Assembly (NCBI GenBank): GCA_021796415.1
Contig: JAJYJC010000005.1
Coordinates: 1-52,121 of the forward strand
DNA length: 52,121 nucleotides
DNA from: a bacterium
GTDB lineage: Bacteria; Patescibacteriota; CPR2; UBA1875; JAJYID01
Reading direction: 5' to 3'
The position numbers were made by a program, and so were the translations under genes. Within the stretch, counting starts at the first letter, position 1. Each line of letters begins with the position of its first letter. Shown here piece after piece: positions 236 through 51,580 of this stretch. A model generated the notes under the pieces. It was given only the letters and a program-made list of their open reading frames with translations, was not told the DNA's origin and ran no database searches.

Positions 236-294
236 GTCATTCCCGCGCAGGCGGGAATCCGGGTTGAATAGATTCCCGCCTGCGCGGGAATGAC
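236..294. repeat. REP-like inverted repeat (gtcattcccgcgcaggcgggaatc...gattcccgcctgcgcgggaatgac)
   Basis: Near-perfect inverted repeat; same family as many other copies in the window. Confidence 0.85.
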
Positions 295-2197: not shown

Positions 2198-2866
2198 ATG
2201 CCTTATAGAAAAACAAATTTTGTTAATGGTAATTTTTATCATGTTATCAATCGTGGTGTAAACCATGATGCGATTTTTAAGGATGAAAAAGATTACCGGC
2301 GTTTTTTAGACTCAACTAATTTTTCAAGATTTGATTCAGAAGTTCAGTTCTCCTATTTTAATAGGATTTCCGAAAAAGCAAGGGGTGAAATGTTGGAGAG
2401 ATTTGAAAAAACAAAAGGTCCTTTAGTTGATATTTTGGTTTTTAGTTTGATGCCAAACCATTACCATTACCTAATGAGACAACTTTTGGATGGTGGAGTG
2501 CAAACGTTTATGAGGAATTTTCAGAATAGCTATGCGAAATTCTTTAATATCAAACACGAAAGAATCGGCCCTTTGTTTCAATCAGCTTTTAGGGCTACAC
2601 CAATTGAAAGCGAGGAACAGCTAGTTCACACCTCAAGATATATTCATTTAAACCAAGTCTCCTCGTCACTAGTGGAAATAACAGATCTGGAAAAATATCC
2701 TTGGACTTCTTTTCCTGAATATTTAGGCAAAAAAAGATATAACTTCGTAAATACCAAACCAATATTAGAATTCTTTGATGGCGATAGGATTAAATATAAA
2801 AAATTTGTTTTTGAGCAAGCTGATAATCAGAAAGAATTGCAAATTATAAAAAATCAATTAAACTAA
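2198..2866 (+). mobile_element. REP-associated tyrosine transposase (RAYT, Y1_Tnp-like)
   Basis: NGNFYHVINRGVNHDAIFKDEKDYRRFL, LMPNHYHYLMRQ (HUH), RYIHLNQV; bracketed by palindromes. Confidence 0.93.
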
Positions 2867-38165: not shown

Positions 38166-38933
38166 CTAAATGTGCGCTGTTTTGGCGGTTTTTGCACGTA
38201 GAACAGCCGCTTTGTGGGCGGCCAACTCGATTCTGTCATCGATTTGCTTCATTCGTGCCCAGCTGCCGTATTTTCTATTTATTGCCATCTGGATTAAATG
38301 ATCAGCAAAATGAGGATTTTTGGGCAGGACCGGACCGTGCAGATAAGTGCCGTAACAATTATTATAGACGGCGCCTTCATACTTGCGGTCGCCGGTGTTG
38401 CCGTAACCGATTTTCACCTTGCCGAGGGGTCTGGTTTTTCCCTCCAGATATGTCAGTCCGCTGTGGTTTTCGAAGCCGACCAAGGTATTTAAAGTGGATT
38501 TCCATTTCTTCGCCTCAGCCTCGATGTCCAGAACGACATTCCCGATGCACCTTTTGTCTGACCCGACAGTGTAGGCGTCAAAAACGCTAATTCCCGGCAG
38601 CATTTCACCTTCTTTGGTTTTAAAATATTTGCCGAAGAGCTGAAAACCGCCGCAGATGGTTAGGCAAACCAAGCCTCGCTCGACCTCACGTTTAATTGCC
38701 GGACCGCGTTTGGCCAAATCGTCAGCTATAATTTTCTGCCCTCGGTCCTGGCCGCCGCCTAGAAAGACGATATCGGCTTTGGAAAAATCAGCTTTCACAC
38801 CGCGCCCGACATTTACGATGTCAACCGAAATGCCGCGCTCAAGCATGCGGCGGCGAAGCGTTACGACATTGCCAAGATCGCCGTATAGGTTCATGGCGTC
38901 AGGATACATGTGATAAATCGTTAAACTTTGCAT
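38166..38933 (-). CDS. gatD: GatD-like type 1 glutamine amidotransferase (lipid II isoglutaminyl synthase subunit)
   Basis: LTIYHMYPDAMNLYGDLGNVVTLRRR; GLVCLTICGGFQLFGKYF; adjacent MurT. Confidence 0.9.
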   Translation of the reverse strand: MQSLTIYHMYPDAMNLYGDLGNVVTLRRRMLERGISVDIVNVGRGVKADFSKADIVFLGGGQDRGQKIIADDLAKRGPAIKREVERGLVCLTICGGFQLFGKYFKTKEGEMLPGISVFDAYTVGSDKRCIGNVVLDIEAEAKKWKSTLNTLVGFENHSGLTYLEGKTRPLGKVKIGYGNTGDRKYEGAVYNNCYGTYLHGPVLPKNPHFADHLIQMAINRKYGSWARMKQIDDRIELAAHKAAVLRAKTAKTAHI

Positions 38934-38936
38934 AAT

Positions 38937-40451
38937 TTAAGTCCAGTAATTATCTAATATTTTTTCTTTGACCAGTAAATTTCTCAGCTCAAGCATGGCG
39001 GTGTAGGTGGGTAAAATATAGAGCTTCTCGTTCGGGCCGGTTTTTTTAATGGCCGTATCCAGCGCTTCAGAAATGTCTTTTTTTACCGTAATTATTTTTG
39101 ACGACACGTCGGCATATTTTAGCCTCAACCTGAGGTCTTCACTGCGGATGCCGCTGACGACGATGTTTGAGAAATAATTTTTGAAAACCTCGTACTCGCA
39201 GTCCCAAATCCAGGAAATGTCGGTGCCGTCGGCGAAGTTGTCGTTTAAAATCAAAAGCGCAGTTTTGGGTTTTCGGGTGGATGAGATTGCCTCTACAACT
39301 TGATTGAAGCCGGTTGGATTCTTAACTAAGTGGATAATGGCTTTTTTGCCGTTTTTCTCAAATGATTCCATACGGCCGAAAGCCGGCTTCAAGTGAGACA
39401 GGGTTTTAGCGATGGCGGCGCTTTTGACTTCCAGAAATGATGCTGCGGCCGTTGCTGCTAAAGCGTTGTAAATGTTGTAAAGTCCGACCATCGGCAGCTT
39501 CAAGTCGAAACTTTCGCGCTTGATAATCATTTTTGCGGTGATGCTTCCCGCTTCCAACCGGATATCCTTGGCGGAAATCTGAGGGTTTGGGCGCTTGAAT
39601 CCGCAGTTTGGACATTCATATACACCGATATGGCCGTAATATCTTCTCGCGTAATTTAGCTCGCTGCCGCAAACGAGGCAGTCCTTTGAGTCAATGGCAA
39701 GCTCGGAACTGGCCGAAATTCGCGTGTCTTGAACGCCGAAGTACAAGACATTGTCCTTGCCTTTTCCAAGCGAGGCAACCATGGGGTCGTCGGCGTTTAA
39801 GATCAGCTTGGCATCCGGCGCATCCTTGATCGCTTTCTCAATAATTGCGGCCGTTTTGTCGACCTCGCCGTAGCGGTCAAGCTGATCACGGAATATATTT
39901 GTAACCATAATCGCCTTGATTTGACTCTTGTTTTTCGTCATTCTGGCCTGCCTTGCCGGCAGGCAGGCTTGTCCAGAATCGGAATTTTTCTGGATTTCCG
40001 CCGGATGTTTATCCGACCTTTGGTGGGCGGGAATGACAGTGGATGGCCCATTTTGAATTTTAAATTTTAAATTTTTAATTAATTCCGGCATCGTTGCTTC
40101 GTCAACCTCATAAACGCCGATATCGGCTTTTAAACTGCCGAAAATACTAGCACGAGATATTAAGGCTGAGGCGATGCCGCGAGAAAGATTTGACCCGCCG
40201 GAGTTATTTAGGACTTTCATTCCAGCATTCTCCAGAATTTCAGTAATCATCTTTGCGGTTGTTGTTTTGCCGTTAGTGCCGGTAACCAAAATGACGCCTT
40301 TTGCCAAATTTTGGGTCAGCTTTGCATTAATTTCAGGATCAATCCGTTGGGCGATAACGCCGGGCAAAGCTCCGCCGCCGCCACGCCCAAAAGCGCGCGA
40401 CCAAAATCCCGCCTGCTTGGCAGCAAGAATAGCCAAATACTTTTTATCCAT
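38937..40451 (-). CDS. murT: MurT-like Mur ligase with repeat-derived insertion
   Basis: VTGTNGKTTTAKMI; LVCGSELNYARRYYGHIGVYECPNCGFKRP; VKNPTGFNQV. Confidence 0.9.
   Translation of the reverse strand: MDKKYLAILAAKQAGFWSRAFGRGGGGALPGVIAQRIDPEINAKLTQNLAKGVILVTGTNGKTTTAKMITEILENAGMKVLNNSGGSNLSRGIASALISRASIFGSLKADIGVYEVDEATMPELIKNLKFKIQNGPSTVIPAHQRSDKHPAEIQKNSDSGQACLPARQARMTKNKSQIKAIMVTNIFRDQLDRYGEVDKTAAIIEKAIKDAPDAKLILNADDPMVASLGKGKDNVLYFGVQDTRISASSELAIDSKDCLVCGSELNYARRYYGHIGVYECPNCGFKRPNPQISAKDIRLEAGSITAKMIIKRESFDLKLPMVGLYNIYNALAATAAASFLEVKSAAIAKTLSHLKPAFGRMESFEKNGKKAIIHLVKNPTGFNQVVEAISSTRKPKTALLILNDNFADGTDISWIWDCEYEVFKNYFSNIVVSGIRSEDLRLRLKYADVSSKIITVKKDISEALDTAIKKTGPNEKLYILPTYTAMLELRNLLVKEKILDNYWT
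39937..40037. repeat. REP-like composite inside murT
   Basis: gtcattctggcctgccttgccggcaggcaggcttgtccagaatc...gccggatgtttatccgacctttggtgggcgggaatgac. Confidence 0.85.
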
Positions 40452-40478
40452 GGTTATATTTTAACACAAAATCTGTTA

Positions 40479-40564
40479 TCATTCCGTAATTCCTGACTGT
40501 CCGGCAGGCGGGGATGCGGAATCCATGTAAATGTACCTGGATTCCCGATCAGAGCCGGGAATGG
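40479..40564. repeat. REP-like degenerate repeat upstream of murT
   Basis: cattccgtaattcctgactgtccggcaggcgg...ggattcccgatcagagccgggaatgg. Confidence 0.6.
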
Positions 40565-40637
40565 CAAACCTACTTTGCTGGACTGATTCAGAATAATAAA
40601 TGGGACGGATCTCAATCATTTCAATTTATGAATGGTG

Positions 40638-40671
40638 TATTGGTACACTAAACTAGTTTAGTGTACCAATA
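40638..40671. repeat. 34-bp perfect palindrome
   Basis: tattggtacactaaactagtttagtgtaccaata. Confidence 0.95.
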
Positions 40672-40685
40672 GTGTAAATAGTCAA

Positions 40686-40719
40686 AAGCACTACGCTAAT
40701 ACAGTTTAGCGTAGTGCTT
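40686..40719. repeat. Inverted repeat, 14-bp arms, 6-nt loop
   Basis: aagcactacgctaa-tacagt-ttagcgtagtgctt. Confidence 0.92.
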
Positions 40720-40749
40720 GCAATGTGTATTTAGGGCAGAATCGTATGC

Positions 40750-41745
40750 TTAGGTGCCCAAGAAATTTTTGACTGCTTTTTCTGCTTCGGATTTATTCTT
40801 TATCCAAGTCACATCTTTATTGCGACGAAGCCAGGTAAGCTGGCGTTTGGCAAGGTTGCGGTCGCCTTGTTTAAACTTCTCAGTCGCTTCTTTCAAACTA
40901 ATTTTTCCAGTTAGATATAGTCCAACTTGTTTGTAGCCTATACCGTTCATGCCAGGATCACCCAAAGAATATTTTTCGAGTAATTTTTTCACCTCGTCCA
41001 CAAATCCTTCCTTCATCCAGACATCGGCACGTTTGTTTATTCTGTCGTACAATTGCTTGCGGTCATTTCCCTTTGTCATTCTGGCTTGTCCAGAATCTGC
41101 TTTATTTTTCTGGATTCCCGCCTGCGCGGGAATGACAGAGGAGGGAGATTTCATCGCTTTAGCTCCAAAGCCTTCACAAAGAGCTAAATACAAAACATTT
41201 TTTGGTAAGGATTTCTTCTTTTCGCTGGCTTTTGGCGATCCGGTCTCATAGAAAATCTCCAAGGCTCTGATTAATCGGTGCCGGTTGTGGGAATCGATCA
41301 TTTTGGCTGTTCGGGAGTCGGCTTTTTGAAGCTCGGAAAAAATTTCCTCGGTTGATTTTTGGGCCAATCGCTCCCGCAGTTTCTGATTCGGCTTTGTATC
41401 GGACATTTCATAATTATAAATAACGGCATCGATATACATCATCGTTCCGCCGGCAATGATAGGGATTTTCCCGCGGCCGGCAATTTCCTTAATTTTTTCT
41501 TCTGCCAGCTTCTTGTACTCGGCTACCGAAAATTGCTCGTCGGGATCGGCAATGTCGAAAAGGTGATGCGGGATGCCTTCACGCTCTTCCGTTGTCGGTT
41601 TGCCGGTGCCCAGATCCATCTCTCTGTAAATGCTCCGGGAGTCGGCATTTATGACTTCGCCGCCGAGCTTCTTTGCCAAGTGAACCGCAAGCGCAGTCTT
41701 TCCGCTGGCCGTTGGTCCGGCAATGACTATAATTGGGTTCTTCAT
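40750..41745 (-). CDS. miaA: tRNA dimethylallyltransferase MiaA with repeat-derived insertion
   Basis: IVIAGPTASGKTALAVHLAKKLGGEVINADSRSIYREMDLGTGKPT; NRHRLIRALEIFYETG. Confidence 0.95.
   Translation of the reverse strand: MKNPIIVIAGPTASGKTALAVHLAKKLGGEVINADSRSIYREMDLGTGKPTTEEREGIPHHLFDIADPDEQFSVAEYKKLAEEKIKEIAGRGKIPIIAGGTMMYIDAVIYNYEMSDTKPNQKLRERLAQKSTEEIFSELQKADSRTAKMIDSHNRHRLIRALEIFYETGSPKASEKKKSLPKNVLYLALCEGFGAKAMKSPSSVIPAQAGIQKNKADSGQARMTKGNDRKQLYDRINKRADVWMKEGFVDEVKKLLEKYSLGDPGMNGIGYKQVGLYLTGKISLKEATEKFKQGDRNLAKRQLTWLRRNKDVTWIKNKSEAEKAVKNFLGT
41075..41136. repeat. REP-like repeat inside miaA
   Basis: gtcattctggcttgtccagaatc...ggattcccgcctgcgcgggaatgac. Confidence 0.88.
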
Positions 41746-41831
41746 TTCCTATTTATCTAATCCCTAATTAACTAATTGATTATATCAGAAAACTTATGTA
41801 TGATGAGGGAAATTAAAGAAGGGTTTCAAAA

Positions 41832-42395
41832 ATGAATGAAACTGGAGATGTAAATAGAGGTCCTAAAGCGGAAGAATCAATAGTCGAGGGAAATTCGAGA
41901 CACAAAGAAATGGTAAGAAGATTTGGCCAGGAAGGGATTGGTGAGAAACCAGTTACTGAAAAGCCTGACTTTACACTGAAAGATCAGCAAGGTATAGAAG
42001 AAATACGTTCAACATTTAACAGTCCAGTTGAGACTTCGGAAGGTAAGCAGGCAAGACAAATTCGAGAAGGTGACGATAATGTTGCAAGAGAGATAGCTAG
42101 GAATAAGGTGCGAAGAGAGGCCGAGAGAAATAAAAAAGGCATTATAAGAGCTGCTGTTTTAACTCCGTTGATCACGATTGGCTCCTTCATTGCAGTACAT
42201 ATTGGTTTGGGCAGACAGGAGAAAATAGATGACCAAAAGGAAGCAGGATATGAACAGGCAGTTTTCACCGATCAACAGAATGATATGAGCCTGCAAGTTC
42301 ATGTTGGCGAAGGTGGTAATGTAAATGCAACAGTTTCAGATGGTACTGAATATTCAACCGATGCTGCTAGCCAGGAAAGCAATCAAGGAAATTAG
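41832..42395 (+). CDS. Hypothetical single-TM protein
   Basis: Charged N-terminus, one TM (GIIRAAVLTPLITIGSFIAVHIGLG). Confidence 0.6.
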   Translation: MNETGDVNRGPKAEESIVEGNSRHKEMVRRFGQEGIGEKPVTEKPDFTLKDQQGIEEIRSTFNSPVETSEGKQARQIREGDDNVAREIARNKVRREAERNKKGIIRAAVLTPLITIGSFIAVHIGLGRQEKIDDQKEAGYEQAVFTDQQNDMSLQVHVGEGGNVNATVSDGTEYSTDAASQESNQGN

Positions 42396-43981
42396 ACAAC
42401 TCTTCCTTTTAGCATCCAAGCTTCAGAGCTAACAATCTCAACATCGACAAACTGGCCTAAGAGGCTAGTTTGTTTTCCGAGGTTCAACCTCACGTGAGGT
42501 TGAACCTCATTTTGCAACTCGACTATTTTATAATTATCGGTGCGGCCGTAGTATTTGCCGTTTTTCTCAGAGTCTATAAGCACCTTCATGATCATGCCGA
42601 CATACTTTTTGTTTTCTTTCTCAAGGTATTTCTTTAAAAGATTTGTTATTTCCTGCCATCTTTTTTCTTTTACTTTTTGAGGCACATTATCTTCCATTTT
42701 TGCTGCTCTCGTGCCTGATCGAGGAGAAAATTTGCCGATGTAAATCATTTCAAAACCGACATCGCGCACTACTTTCTTTGTCTCGTTAAAATCTTCTTCC
42801 GTCTCGCCCGGGAAGCCAACAATTACGTCAGTGGTAATGGCGACCTCAGGTATCGCTTTCTTAATTTTATTAACTAAACTAAAGTAGTTTTTCTGGGTGT
42901 AATGGCGATTCATAGCTTTCAAGATTTTATCGCTGCCGGACTGCAGGGGCAGGTGGATGTAATGAGGAAAATGCTCAGTTTTCGGAATAGCTTTGATTAG
43001 CTCGTCTGAGAAGTCTTTTGGGTGGTTAGAGTAGAAATAAACTCGGTATGTGCCGGGGATTTTATCAATTTTTTTAAGAAGTTTAGTGAAATCGGTATTA
43101 AGTGTTTTGCATTGAGAATCTGACCCAACATTGTCATTCTGAGCGACTTCACATAGTGACGAGTCGAAGAATCTCTTTTCTTCCTCATTTTTCTTTGAGA
43201 GATCCTTCGTTTCCTCAGGATTACTGCAAACATTATTCTTTTGTTTTTCAGTCCTTTTGTCCTTTTGTCCTTGGTAATTATGCGTATGGACAAAATCTGA
43301 GCCATAGGAATTCACATTTTGGCCAAGGAGGGTTATTTCTTTGTAGCCGGCAGACACCAGATTGCGGATCTCAGACAAAATCTCCGGCATTGGCCGCGAA
43401 ACTTCCCGCCCGCGAGTGTAGGGGACGGCGCAGTAGGTGCAAAAATTATTGCAGCCGGTAGAGATGGGCACGTAGGCAGAGAACGAAGATTCTCTTTTTG
43501 GAGTAATACTGAAATAATCTTCGTAATTTTCAATTTCCAATTCACAATTTTCAATCGAATCCCAATTTTCAATTTCCAAATCAGTTTTTTCGGGATTGGC
43601 TTTTTTGGGGTTTTGGTATTGTTTAGGATTTAGACTTTTGGATTTAGTGCTTGATTCCAAAAATTTTCTCAATTTTGGGAGATCTTTTATATCAAAAATC
43701 AGGTCAAAAAATTTGCTCATGGTAACTCTATCTTTATCTAAGACACAGCCGGAGAGAATAGTGACCAAACCTCCATTTTCCTTGCGTTTTTGCCACTCGC
43801 GAGCTTTGCCGTAAATGCGATCGATGGCGTGCTGGCGGACGCTGCAGGCGACAATAACTACAAAATCAGCATCAGATTCAGACGTCGTTTGTGTATGGCC
43901 GGCATCTTCAAAAACAGATGCGATCCTTTCCGCATCCGAGTGGTTCATAGCGCAACCCAAGGCCCAAATATAGTACTTCAT
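42392..43981 (-). CDS. miaB: tRNA-2-methylthio-N6-dimethylallyladenosine synthase MiaB with several insertions
   Basis: ALGCAMNHSDAERIA; ISTGCNNFCTYCAVPYTRGRE; LLGQNVNSYG; HLPLQSGSDKILKAMNRHYT. Confidence 0.94.
   Translation of the reverse strand: MKYYIWALGCAMNHSDAERIASVFEDAGHTQTTSESDADFVVIVACSVRQHAIDRIYGKAREWQKRKENGGLVTILSGCVLDKDRVTMSKFFDLIFDIKDLPKLRKFLESSTKSKSLNPKQYQNPKKANPEKTDLEIENWDSIENCELEIENYEDYFSITPKRESSFSAYVPISTGCNNFCTYCAVPYTRGREVSRPMPEILSEIRNLVSAGYKEITLLGQNVNSYGSDFVHTHNYQGQKDKRTEKQKNNVCSNPEETKDLSKKNEEEKRFFDSSLCEVAQNDNVGSDSQCKTLNTDFTKLLKKIDKIPGTYRVYFYSNHPKDFSDELIKAIPKTEHFPHYIHLPLQSGSDKILKAMNRHYTQKNYFSLVNKIKKAIPEVAITTDVIVGFPGETEEDFNETKKVVRDVGFEMIYIGKFSPRSGTRAAKMEDNVPQKVKEKRWQEITNLLKKYLEKENKKYVGMIMKVLIDSEKNGKYYGRTDNYKIVELQNEVQPHVRLNLGKQTSLLGQFVDVEIVSSEAWMLKGRVV
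42479..42508. repeat. 30-bp perfect palindrome inside miaB 3' end
   Basis: gaggttcaacctcacgtgaggttgaacctc. Confidence 0.95.
43133..43174. repeat. REP-like repeat (gtcattctgagcg...gagtcgaagaatctc) inside miaB
   Basis: Dispersed-repeat-like sequence in the coding region. Confidence 0.75.
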
Positions 43982-44029
43982 AGGGATTAATTTTAACAGA
44001 AAAATGGAGTTTTTGGAATGAAACTAATC

Positions 44030-44323
44030 TTAGATGTTATTCAACCCCTCTTCAAGAGCTTTAATTTTGTTTTCTATTTCTGTTATTTCTATTATTTTCT
44101 TAAGTGTTTCATCTTCTGTCTCATATTGATTGCTGGCAATTTCTCTTTTTTTTGTCAGAGATTCTATATTATCTGCTTTGAATCCCAAACGCTCACTTGT
44201 TGCCATCCCTTGATCAACCTCGTTTCTAAGAACCTCAAGCCTGTTCTTCAGCGACTCAATTTCTCTTGTTGCTCTTTCGGTGCTGAGATTGATAATATTT
44301 TCCGATCCACTTTCGGGAGGCAT
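44030..44323 (-). CDS. Hypothetical coiled-coil protein
   Basis: 97 aa, Glu/Lys-rich heptads; abuts malic enzyme stop. Confidence 0.5.
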   Translation of the reverse strand: MPPESGSENIINLSTERATREIESLKNRLEVLRNEVDQGMATSERLGFKADNIESLTKKREIASNQYETEDETLKKIIEITEIENKIKALEEGLNNI

Positions 44324-45528
44324 TATTTTTTCTTGCCCTGTTTATCGAAATCTTTCAGTGAATTTGCAATCGTTGGTACCAAGCCTTTGTCAAAGATAGA
44401 CGGAATAATTTTTTCTGCGGTTGGATTTTCTACCATTTTTGCGATGGCCTCAGAAACAGCGACCTTTATATCCATGGTTACTTTTTGAATGCCATTATCG
44501 AGCAACCCTCGGAAAAGGCCGGGGAAGACAAGTGCGTTATTGATCTGATTCGGAAAGTCGCTTCGGCCGGTGGCAATGACTTTGGCGCCACCTTTTCTCG
44601 CCTCATCCGGCATGATTTCGGGGATAGGGTTTGCCATGGCAAAGACTATCGGATCTGGGTTCATGGATTTTATGTCTTTTGTTGTAAACTGGCCGGGTTT
44701 TGAAACTCCTATCAAGACATCGGCGTCTTTAAGGGCCAGATTACAGCTTCCTTCCTTGCAAGGCGAGGCGCTTCTTGTGATTATGCTTTTTTTGTGTTCG
44801 CTTAAATCTTCTCTTCTTCCGTGAACTATTCCCCTAGAGTCGCACAGGCATAGGTTTTCAAAGCCGTAGTGAAAAAGTAAATTTGCTATGGCGATGCCTG
44901 CAGCTCCGGCGCCGGAGATAACAATTTTTACATTTTTGTCTTTGCCGACAACCTTTAAGGCATTGATCAAACCTGCCAAAACGACGATGGCGGTGCCGTG
45001 TTGATCGTCATGAAAGACCGGGATATCGAGATCTTCGGTTAATCTTTTTTCAATTTCAAAACAGCGGGGCGCCGAGATGTCTTCCAGATTAATCCCGCCA
45101 AAAGATGGTGCCATGGCTTTCACTATTCCAATAATTTCCTCAGTATCTTGGGTGTCTAGGCAAATCGGCACAGCGTTTATTCCGGCAAATTGGGCGAAAA
45201 TAGCTGCTTTGCCCTCCATCACCGGCATGGCAGCTTCGGGGCCGACGTTGCCAAGTCCAAGCACTGCGCTGCCGTCGGAAACAACCGGTACGGTATTTTG
45301 CCTTCCCGTCAAGACATTGACCTGCGATTTGTCTTTGGCGATGGCGTCTGACGCCTTGGCAACGCCCGGAGTATAGGCAACAGGAAGAGTCTCCTCATTT
45401 AGTTCGATTTTCGAACTGATGATGATTTTGCCCTTTAAATCCCTGTGCATCTTTATCGGATCTTCTAGATTCATTAATTCAATTCTACGCCTTGCATTAC
45501 GGAATTTCAAGATCTCCTTGGGCGTCAT
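44323..45528 (-). CDS. NAD(P)-dependent malic enzyme
   Basis: PVAYTPGVAKASDAIAKD; SDGSAVLGLGNVGPEAAMPVMEGKA; FHDDQHGTAIVVLAGLINAL. Confidence 0.94.
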   Translation of the reverse strand: MTPKEILKFRNARRRIELMNLEDPIKMHRDLKGKIIISSKIELNEETLPVAYTPGVAKASDAIAKDKSQVNVLTGRQNTVPVVSDGSAVLGLGNVGPEAAMPVMEGKAAIFAQFAGINAVPICLDTQDTEEIIGIVKAMAPSFGGINLEDISAPRCFEIEKRLTEDLDIPVFHDDQHGTAIVVLAGLINALKVVGKDKNVKIVISGAGAAGIAIANLLFHYGFENLCLCDSRGIVHGRREDLSEHKKSIITRSASPCKEGSCNLALKDADVLIGVSKPGQFTTKDIKSMNPDPIVFAMANPIPEIMPDEARKGGAKVIATGRSDFPNQINNALVFPGLFRGLLDNGIQKVTMDIKVAVSEAIAKMVENPTAEKIIPSIFDKGLVPTIANSLKDFDKQGKKK

Positions 45529-45585
45529 TCTGGCTTGGCCAGAATCTGGCTCTTGAAAATTGGATTCTGGCCAAGCCAGAATGAC
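45524..45585. repeat. REP-like pair between malic enzyme and gdhA
   Basis: gtcattctggcttggccagaatc...gattctggccaagccagaatgac. Confidence 0.88.
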
Positions 45586-48863: not shown

Positions 48864-50593
48864 TTTTTCTCGTTAATTTCTTTTTTGAGATTTGAGATCA
48901 GTTTCTTTAGTTCAATCTGGCCTTCGTCGCCTTTTTTATGCGAGCGGACGGCGACCTTGCCGGCTTTTTCTTCCTTCTCACCAAGTATCAGCATGTATGG
49001 AATTTTTTCGAGCTCTGCATTTCGGATCTTCTTGCCGACCGATTCATCGCTAGCATCAAACTCAACTCGCAAATCTGCGTCTTTCAATTCTTTCTCAACT
49101 TTTCTGGCAAATTCCTCAAACTTTTCCGAAACCGGAATTACCTTCACCTGCACCGGCGCAAGCCAGAGAGGGAAATATCCACCGTAGTGCTCGATCAAAA
49201 CGCCAATGAATCTTTCCAGGGAGCCGAGAAGCGCTCGGTGAATCATAACCGGCCTTTTCTTCTTGCCTTTTTCATCGACATATTCCATCTGGAAGCGTTC
49301 CGGCAGGTTGAAATCGAACTGGATGGTAGAGCACTGCCAGCTTCTGCCTAGAGAATCTTTAATCTTGATGTCGATTTTTGGCCCATAAAAAACACCTTCG
49401 CCCGGGTCAATTTCGTAGTTTATTTTTTCTCTCTTTAGGGCGCTTTCGAGAGCGCTTGTTGCCATTTTCCAGTTTTTATCGCTGCCGACAGCCTTTTCCG
49501 GTTTGGTTGAAAGATAGATCTGGATATCTGAAAATTCAAACTCCTTTAAGATTCGAAGTGCAAATGAAACCGTATCCCCAATTTCTTGTTCAACTTGATC
49601 CTCGCGGCAGATGATATGGGCATCGTCTTGGGTGAAGCCGCGTACCCTCATCAGTCCATGAAGAACGCCGCTTTTTTCATACCTATAAACAGTGCCGAAC
49701 TCAGCCAATCGCATCGGAAGTTCGCGGTAAGAACGCTGTTTGTTTTTATAAACCGCAATGTGAAAAGGGCAATTCATGGGCTTGACCAGAAACTCTTGCT
49801 TGTCGGCTTTAAACGAGGAATACATATTTTCCTTGTAAAAGCCAAGATGTCCGGAGGTTTCCCATAGTTCTTTGTGGGCGATATGCGGAGTTTCAACCAT
49901 CTGATAGCCCGACCGCTTCAGCTCATCCGTCAAAAACTCTTTGATAGCCGTTCTTAAAGCCGTGCCTTTTGGGAGCCAAACCGGCAGGCCTGCGCCAACC
50001 TCGTCGTTTATGGTAAAAATCTCAAGATCTTCACCCAACTTTCGATGGTCGCGCTTCTTGGCTTCTTCTAAGTTTTTCAAAAATTCATCCAGTTCTTTTT
50101 GTGTGGCGAAGGCGTAGCCGTAGATGCGCTGGAGCATCTTATTCTTTTCGTCACCCTTCCAGTAAGCGCCGGAAATGTGTGAGAGTTTGAAAGCGCCCAG
50201 CTGACTTGTGGAGGCCACATGCGGACCGGCGCAAAGATCGATGAAGTTTCCGGTTTTGTAGAAAGATACCGATTTCTCGCAGGATTTTTCGAGATCTTTG
50301 ATAAGCTCGGTTTTGTAAGTTTGCTTGGATTTCTTGGAAATCTCAAGCGCTTCTTTGATAGAGACATCCGCTCGCTCAAACTTCTCGTTCTTTTTTACTA
50401 TCTGCCTCATCTTTTTCTCGAGAATCGGCAAATCTTCAGGAATTAAAGTCCTCGGAAGGTCGAAGTCATAGTAAAACCCGTTCTCAATTGCCGGGCCCAT
50501 GCCGAGCTTGGCTTCCGGGAACATGTCCAAGACCGCCGCCGCCAGGATGTGGCTGAAGCTATGCCTCATAGTTTCTACATTGTTATTCTTCAT
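48860..50593 (-). CDS. thrS: Threonyl-tRNA synthetase
   Basis: METPHIAHKELWETSGHLGFYKENMY; VKPMNCPFHIAVYKNKQRSYRELPMRLAEFGTVYRYEKSGVLHGLMRVRGFTQDDAHI. Confidence 0.97.
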   Translation of the reverse strand: MKNNNVETMRHSFSHILAAAVLDMFPEAKLGMGPAIENGFYYDFDLPRTLIPEDLPILEKKMRQIVKKNEKFERADVSIKEALEISKKSKQTYKTELIKDLEKSCEKSVSFYKTGNFIDLCAGPHVASTSQLGAFKLSHISGAYWKGDEKNKMLQRIYGYAFATQKELDEFLKNLEEAKKRDHRKLGEDLEIFTINDEVGAGLPVWLPKGTALRTAIKEFLTDELKRSGYQMVETPHIAHKELWETSGHLGFYKENMYSSFKADKQEFLVKPMNCPFHIAVYKNKQRSYRELPMRLAEFGTVYRYEKSGVLHGLMRVRGFTQDDAHIICREDQVEQEIGDTVSFALRILKEFEFSDIQIYLSTKPEKAVGSDKNWKMATSALESALKREKINYEIDPGEGVFYGPKIDIKIKDSLGRSWQCSTIQFDFNLPERFQMEYVDEKGKKKRPVMIHRALLGSLERFIGVLIEHYGGYFPLWLAPVQVKVIPVSEKFEEFARKVEKELKDADLRVEFDASDESVGKKIRNAELEKIPYMLILGEKEEKAGKVAVRSHKKGDEGQIELKKLISNLKKEINEKK

Positions 50594-51281
50594 TTTCTTC
50601 CTCCTCTATAAAACTATTTTCAAAATCCTCAAGACTTAGTATTTCAGGATGCCTCTTTCGGATTGTCTCAACAAAAATTAAGGCCTCTTCTGAAAGTTCT
50701 TCAATTGGAACTCCAAATGCCTCATGAACTATCAATTCATAAGGTAGCTCGTCGCCCAGTTCCTTCACCAGTTCTTCTAAGTGTTTCATGTCTTTGTGCG
50801 GTTTTTCTAGTCTTATGATTCTATCGTGCAGATCACACTGATATCTGTAAAAAGATCTTCTTAAAAGGTCCACTCTAAATAGTTCTTGTGCATCTTCTCC
50901 TAATGCTTCCGGATCATGCCCCTTTTCTTGAAGCCATTTTTCAAACTTTTCCCAATCTTCTTTGAATTGTTCTTCATGCCGTTCTCCCTTTATAAAATCG
51001 AGGGTTAACTCTGATAAATCAATTTCGTATTCTTCAATTCTTTCGCCTGCAGCGCCTCTTTTTGATCGTTCTGCAATGTAATCGTGAAAGAATGCGGCTT
51101 TCGTTTTGTTTATCTCATCAACTTCATCGGCGCCTATCTTCTCAACAACAGCTTGGGTCCTTTCATACAACTGTTCTTTTTCTGTCTCAAGAATTTCTTG
51201 TCGTGATTTATATTCTGCTATTTCCGCCAATCGGCGCTCTTCTGCTGCCTCTGGTGAATTGCCTGAAATATCTTGTCCCAT
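50583..51281 (-). CDS. Hypothetical highly charged helical protein
   Basis: Likely start MGQDISGN; upstream part of the listed ORF covers a REP and leader sequence. Confidence 0.6.
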   Translation of the reverse strand: MGQDISGNSPEAAEERRLAEIAEYKSRQEILETEKEQLYERTQAVVEKIGADEVDEINKTKAAFFHDYIAERSKRGAAGERIEEYEIDLSELTLDFIKGERHEEQFKEDWEKFEKWLQEKGHDPEALGEDAQELFRVDLLRRSFYRYQCDLHDRIIRLEKPHKDMKHLEELVKELGDELPYELIVHEAFGVPIEELSEEALIFVETIRKRHPEILSLEDFENSFIEEEENEE

Positions 51282-51301
51282 TTTTCCTCCTTTCGATTTT
51301 C

Positions 51302-51348
51302 TGGATTCCCGCCGGATGTTTACCCGACTTTGGCGGGCGGGAATGACA
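51302..51348. repeat. REP-like repeat, near-identical to the right half of the murT copy
   Basis: tggattcccgccggatgtttacccgactttggcgggcgggaatgacag. Confidence 0.85.
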
Positions 51349-51357
51349 GGGTAATTT

Positions 51358-51580
51358 AAAAAACGACCTGAAATTAGGCCGTCAAGTCCCAAATTGGGAG
51401 GTTCCACTCGACTTCCCAGCACCTTTTAGTCTTCGAATTCTATTCTCTTCTTTAATTCCTGAAGACCTTTGCCATGGTGCCGGACTCTCTTTTGCCCATA
51501 TCGCTTCATTAATTCATTTTCACCTGGGTCTGGGTGGGGCTCAGAAGATGGTTAGTCTTCATCAAAGCCCTTATTTATTT
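51358..51580 (-). ncRNA. Candidate T-box-like leader RNA with terminator, upstream of the 50583 ORF-thrS unit
   Basis: Minus strand: ccggcacc..ggtgctgg stem; gtcgagTGGAACCtcccaatttgggacttgac; terminator acggcctaatttcaggtcgtttttt. Confidence 0.5.

Follow-up and report, generated by a model that had tools for sequence, protein, structure and literature searches.

Mobile DNA can add new sequence to proteins when palindromic repeats insert in frame, a route that is documented but has received little study. REPINs, another kind of palindromic unit, are tied to GTAG-type REPs and to a RAYT. The RPE of Rickettsia, including the CGTC-tagged RPE-4 and RPE-6, are short palindromes that lie in frame in conserved genes such as uvrB, and R. 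conorii produces an active guanylate kinase that includes the translated RPE insert (PMC3733652, PMC2229807). CGTC REP dimers have a TGTC/CGTC tag, an 8-bp stem starting from A-T pairs, and a loop of 4-5 nt; they form head-to-head dimers, including heterodimers, have some intragenic copies, and lack a linked transposase (Di Nocera et al. 2013, PMC3733652). REPINs consist of two inverted REPs that form one larger hairpin unit and are dispersed and non-autonomous (PMC3116915). The main text of Di Nocera et al. seems to cover no candidate-phylum genome (PMC3733652), and a limited search of mostly non-subscription literature found no reports of such inserts in candidate-phylum bacteria.

The miaA gene in the window (the whole stretch of 52,121 nucleotides analysed here) contains an element that shares all these features of CGTC REP dimers, a linked transposase having been sought among Y1_Tnp genes, and resembles REPINs in being dispersed, non-autonomous and arranged as two inverted hairpins (Table 1). 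It resembles the RPE in being a short CGTC-tagged palindrome located in frame in conserved genes; the likeness is one of features rather than of aligned sequences, and the host differs in belonging to another lineage, which genome size and gene content suggest to be Patescibacteria-like. The locus is best read as a new example of in-frame palindromic insertion, in Patescibacteria-like genomes and with active turnover. Very probably, miaA received a REP dimer without loss of frame, and the insert is translated as a tolerated flexible loop, with selection filtering the surviving copies.

Table 1. Features of the window discussed in the text (strand: +, forward; -, reverse;., none assigned)
Feature	Position	Strand	Remarks
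Intergenic doublet copy	237..293	.	
RAYT-like Y1 transposase gene	2198..2866	+	own perfect palindromes at ~2136-2171 and 2872-2902
Longer REP-like element, in frame in murT	39937..40037	-	murT at 38937-40451
miaA, tRNA dimethylallyltransferase	40750..41745	-	331 aa, otherwise intact
Whole extra MiaA loop	41065..41178	-	residues 190-227 (38 aa); includes ~46 nt non-repetitive
CGTC-type REP dimer (REPIN-like, 62 nt), in frame in miaA	41075..41136	-	encodes VIPAQAGIQKNKADSGQARMT = MiaA residues 204-224
Second hairpin of miaA doublet	41078..41096	-	ATTCTGG-type arm
First hairpin of miaA doublet (gene orientation)	41114..41133	-	ATTCCCGC-GCAG-GCGGGAAT type
30-nt perfect palindrome in miaB coding sequence	42479..42508	-	TRAM region
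Composite in-frame miaB insert, other dispersed repeats	43109..43306	-	miaB at 42392-43981
Intergenic doublet copy at malic-enzyme gene end	45525..45584	.	

Judged by its defining features, the miaA element belongs to the CGTC REP dimers, and it sits in the reading frame as the inserts of R. conorii do. It ends in TGTCATTC on one side and GAATGACA on the other, with CGTC in other copies, and this terminal CGTC/TGTC motif lies outside the stem. The arms ATTCCCGC and GCGGGAAT enclose a loop of 4 nt and conform to the 8-9 bp stem with an A-T start and the loop of 4-5 nt. RNA folding pairs ATTCTGG with CCAGAAT around a 5-nt loop in the second arm, which makes the element a heterodimer. The REP-like unit of the first-pass annotation is confirmed as a dispersed repeat but refined to a doublet of two hairpins. 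Read on the minus strand, positions 41075-41136 yield VIPAQAGIQKNKADSGQARMT inside an ORF of 331 aa.

Folded as RNA, the 62 nt form two stem-loops with an energy of -21.9 kcal/mol, compared with -10.7 for shuffled sequences (z -4.2). Comparably sized hop elements are known from other systems, and two such stable hairpins might indicate that the insert never reaches the mature protein because a self-splicing intron, excision of an RNA hairpin, or ribosomal bypassing eliminates it before or while the message is translated, leaving MiaA without the extra loop. Such removal is very improbable, because an Rfam scan of positions 38500-44200 gave no match at E up to 1, group I and group II introns included, and because the insert alleles of relatives keep the frame and are free of stops, which neither excision nor bypassing would require. 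Under insertion of a translated REP dimer, the ribosome would read through the element, and MiaA would gain a flexible surface loop of ~36 residues with a near-neutral effect; the insert would work like an RPE insertion.

The frame is kept on both sides of the insert, and the ORF passes the NCBIfam equivalog model for miaA (279.5 bits vs a cut-off of 148.65) and also matches Pfam IPPT. Between residues 189 and 228, the MiaA loop comprises 38 residues, compared with 2-3 in 11 close relatives (alignment A1) and 6-7 in 42 more distant bacteria (alignment A2). In the nearest relative with miaA, a member of the same genus (G002; 73-75% identical), YLAI is joined straight to DRDREELY; the gene was not found in the other sister genome (G001), whose assembly is 64% complete. 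All 15 relatives examined lack the insert, which rules out an ancestral loop; judged by these alignments, the insert is derived and has arisen in the lineage of the present genome (G000). The first-pass annotation had named an ancestral insert unrelated to the dispersed repeat as the contrary case, which the comparison does not bear out.

Compared with the relatives, MiaA has gained a net 36 residues (108 nt). Only 21 of them (62 nt) come from the repeat, which was correctly recognized from the outset as lying in frame; the others are CEGFGAKAMKSPSS before the repeat and KGN after it, and 46 of the 108 nt are not repetitive. The extra stretch on the 5' side (CTCTTTGTGAAGGCTTTGGAGCTAAAG...) has no second occurrence in its own genome. 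Among 59 relatives, the best match to the 46 nt (36 nt at 84%) falls within a G022 gene, where the protein reads SLCEGFG, a glycosyltransferase-like motif; the match was judged to be due to chance or unexplained, and the gene was rejected as a source.

An AlphaFold2 model of MiaA, based on an alignment of 43 sequences, places the insert between a strand (residues 184-189) and a helix (225-245). The mean pLDDT is 87.5, with most of the fold above 90 and residues 192-223 below 50, so the structure of the insert itself is not modelled with confidence. The structure that the model matches best is E. coli MiaA in complex with tRNA (Z 32.8, with an rmsd of 2.5 across 293 residues). Because no aligned sequence covers the insert, its low pLDDT is expected in any case, and the model supports only that the remaining fold, which is predicted to be intact, need not be disturbed. 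Because the reading frame is unbroken, MiaA probably carries an additional floppy loop.

The doublet is dispersed. A pattern consisting of both terminal motifs and a gap of 28-58 nt detects 43 copies in the 903-kb genome, whereas the reversed pattern, which served as control, detects none; the window contains six strand-matches (0.25 expected). All 43 are head-to-head dimers; matches to single arms also occur but are outside that count. Related genomes contain 34 (G001), 26 (G002), and, in another genus, 20 copies (G003). In a sample of 239 genomes of the phylum, most have 0-3 copies, which is close to the reversed control, and a few others have 7-11. The doublet is therefore abundant in the family but scarce in most of the phylum. 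At 45525, the one locus where the flanks of a doublet align in G001, that genome lacks the element at this position; the place is occupied by a different filler, so neither an insertion junction nor a target duplication can be defined.

Twelve doublets are common to G000 and G001 when paired by their flanks (150 nt on each side; e.g., L002:1469-1529 and L173:1748-1808). They show 12 differences within the elements vs 48 expected from the flanks (~4x less change), but the search pattern fixes 13 positions and thereby biases the arms towards identity. The free spacers differ by 2.0%, compared with 5.9% in the flanks. A slower change of shared doublets than of the flanking DNA is only suggested by these numbers and owes something to this bias.

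Nine of the 43 doublets lie within ORFs of at least 150 aa, eight of them in the coding part of recognizable genes: queA, ychF, an elp3-like radical SAM gene, queH, prmC, uvrB, lepA (truncated by a contig end), and miaA. A methyltransferase ORF on contig C41 (L063:2075-2944) was discarded because the repeat is upstream of the domain and probably 5' of the true start; likewise, an apparent VIPAR insert in the ORF at 50586-51422 of the window precedes a likely later start and is probably outside the gene. The same repeat occurs both between genes and in frame within genes, at sites where orthologues lack it, as in Rickettsia, and the same pattern is seen in about nine genes. VIPAQAGIQ-like stretches in such proteins should be annotated as translated repeats, not as domains. 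The elp3-like (L063:298-2226) and uvrB (L069:172-2337) inserts also hold an AT-rich dispersed repeat (NDQFPxSNFQSISN), which indicates that several repeat classes share the same insertion sites.

Four of the nine host genes (queA, queH, elp3, and miaA) modify tRNA, and this marked weighting of the intragenic copies towards tRNA modification sets the doublet apart from the CGTC REPs of Di Nocera et al. The probability of four such hosts by chance is ~1e-5 to 5e-5, a post hoc estimate that assumes 15-25 tRNA-modification genes among ~900. Such genes may be dispensable, and queH of G001 (L185 / L163) is frameshifted downstream of its repeat insert, by decay or an assembly error. Some repeat-bearing genes may therefore be decaying, and miaA might be one of them, inactivated or crippled by an insertion that kept the frame by chance. 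For miaA, this is quite improbable. MiaA has no stops and retains every residue conserved in at least 95% of close relatives, and several of the hosts (uvrB, lepA, prmC, and ychF) belong to the conserved gene core.

Frame preservation in eight of eight genes likewise argues against decay; its probability is 1.5e-4 at 1/3 per event, in an ORF-based search that favours in-frame cases. Only 90 of the 258 element frames (43 elements in six frames) are free of stops. No gene split out of frame by a doublet was found among the main cases with same-strand frames abutting both sides; the flanking ORF pairs tested were either two different genes (among others, aldolase/triosephosphate isomerase, phosphoglycerate kinase/GAPDH, and superoxide dismutase/LigD-N) or had at least one side without a family match. 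Given the bias of the ORF-based search, the inserts of relatives, which were located by homology and not by frame, are the more independent evidence, and those at the elp3, ychF, murT, miaB, lepA, queH, and uvrB sites have no internal stops.

The findings are consistent with a REP dimer that, as one of dozens of non-autonomous palindromes, would have entered miaA in the G000 lineage at the loop linking a core strand to the next helix. With an insert of this length and frame, the gene would have stayed open, and the fold of MiaA, and probably its activity, would have been left in place. Selfish palindromes would insert widely, presumably transposed by an enzyme acting in trans, and selection would remove insertions that break the frame or add stops, so that only in-frame copies at permissive loops are seen, as with Rickettsia RPE and other CGTC REPs.

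The genome holds three RAYT-like Y1_Tnp genes, one of them in the window. The latter is bounded on both sides (2129-2903) by a perfect palindrome with a ACACCTGGTGTCGACACCAGGTGT core, not by the doublet. The doublet flanks none of the three genes, each of which has its own, different palindrome, in line with the CGTC repeats of Di Nocera et al., for which no linked transposase was found (PMC3733652). REPINs differ in this respect: their association with GTAG-type REPs and a RAYT (PMC3733652) does not apply to the present doublet, because its tag is CGTC/TGTC and the RAYT-like genes lack flanks of the same REP. Mobilization by a RAYT was rejected for want of a physical link and because the counts do not track. 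Concerning mobility only, and compatible with a translated REP dimer, a Y1 transposase of the genome could still move the doublet, as is thought for GTAG REPs. The four genomes of the family with at least 20 doublets each have at least two Y1_Tnp genes; against this stand the different palindromes at all three genes here, a genome with 8-9 doublets but no Y1_Tnp match (G151), and one with eight matches but only 1-2 doublets (G014), which make such a role conceivable but rather doubtful.

The first-pass annotation had placed the miaA repeat close to a similar insertion in murT, which holds, and further in-frame inserts are present in miaB (Table 1). At several host sites, including many of the inserts at the elp3, ychF, murT, miaB, lepA, queH, and uvrB sites, sister species hold in-frame repeats that differ from those of G000, which shows that such loops are repeatedly used. 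In G001 and G003, the miaB site matching 43109-43306 is occupied by a VIPAQAGI doublet. Two doublets lie in frame in G001 miaB (L197:353-412 and L197:755-819) at sites occupied by other repeats here; a MurD-like ligase and a protein with a Kae1-like carbamoyltransferase domain from the same genome also contain in-frame doublets. The composite uvrB insert is nearly the same in G003 (L168), a member of another genus, but is absent from G002 of the same genus, which requires loss or exchange between lineages. A comparable case is recB of two Xanthomonas species, where different REPs occupy about the same site (PMC3733652).

Differing inserts at one site in sister species distinguish the system from the RPE of Rickettsia. 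With about nine core genes affected in one 0.9-Mb genome and differences between species at the same spots, Patescibacteria offer a second good system beside Rickettsia, suited to learning where proteins accept added sequence in their loops and by what means the repeats move. Tentatively, and with less confidence than for the miaA insertion, unrelated classes of short repeats might keep entering and replacing each other in frame, family-wide, at fixed permissive loops of translation and tRNA-modification enzymes, with slow-changing doublets hinting at maintenance at the level of the element.

The miaB gene contains, in addition, a 30-nt palindrome whose in-frame translation, NEVQPHVRLNLG, falls close to the C terminus of MiaB. 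Similar palindromes flank a RAYT-like gene on contig C32 (AGGTTCAACCTC... in miaB vs AGGTTCGACCTG...), so that genes may also be entered in frame by elements of a second class.
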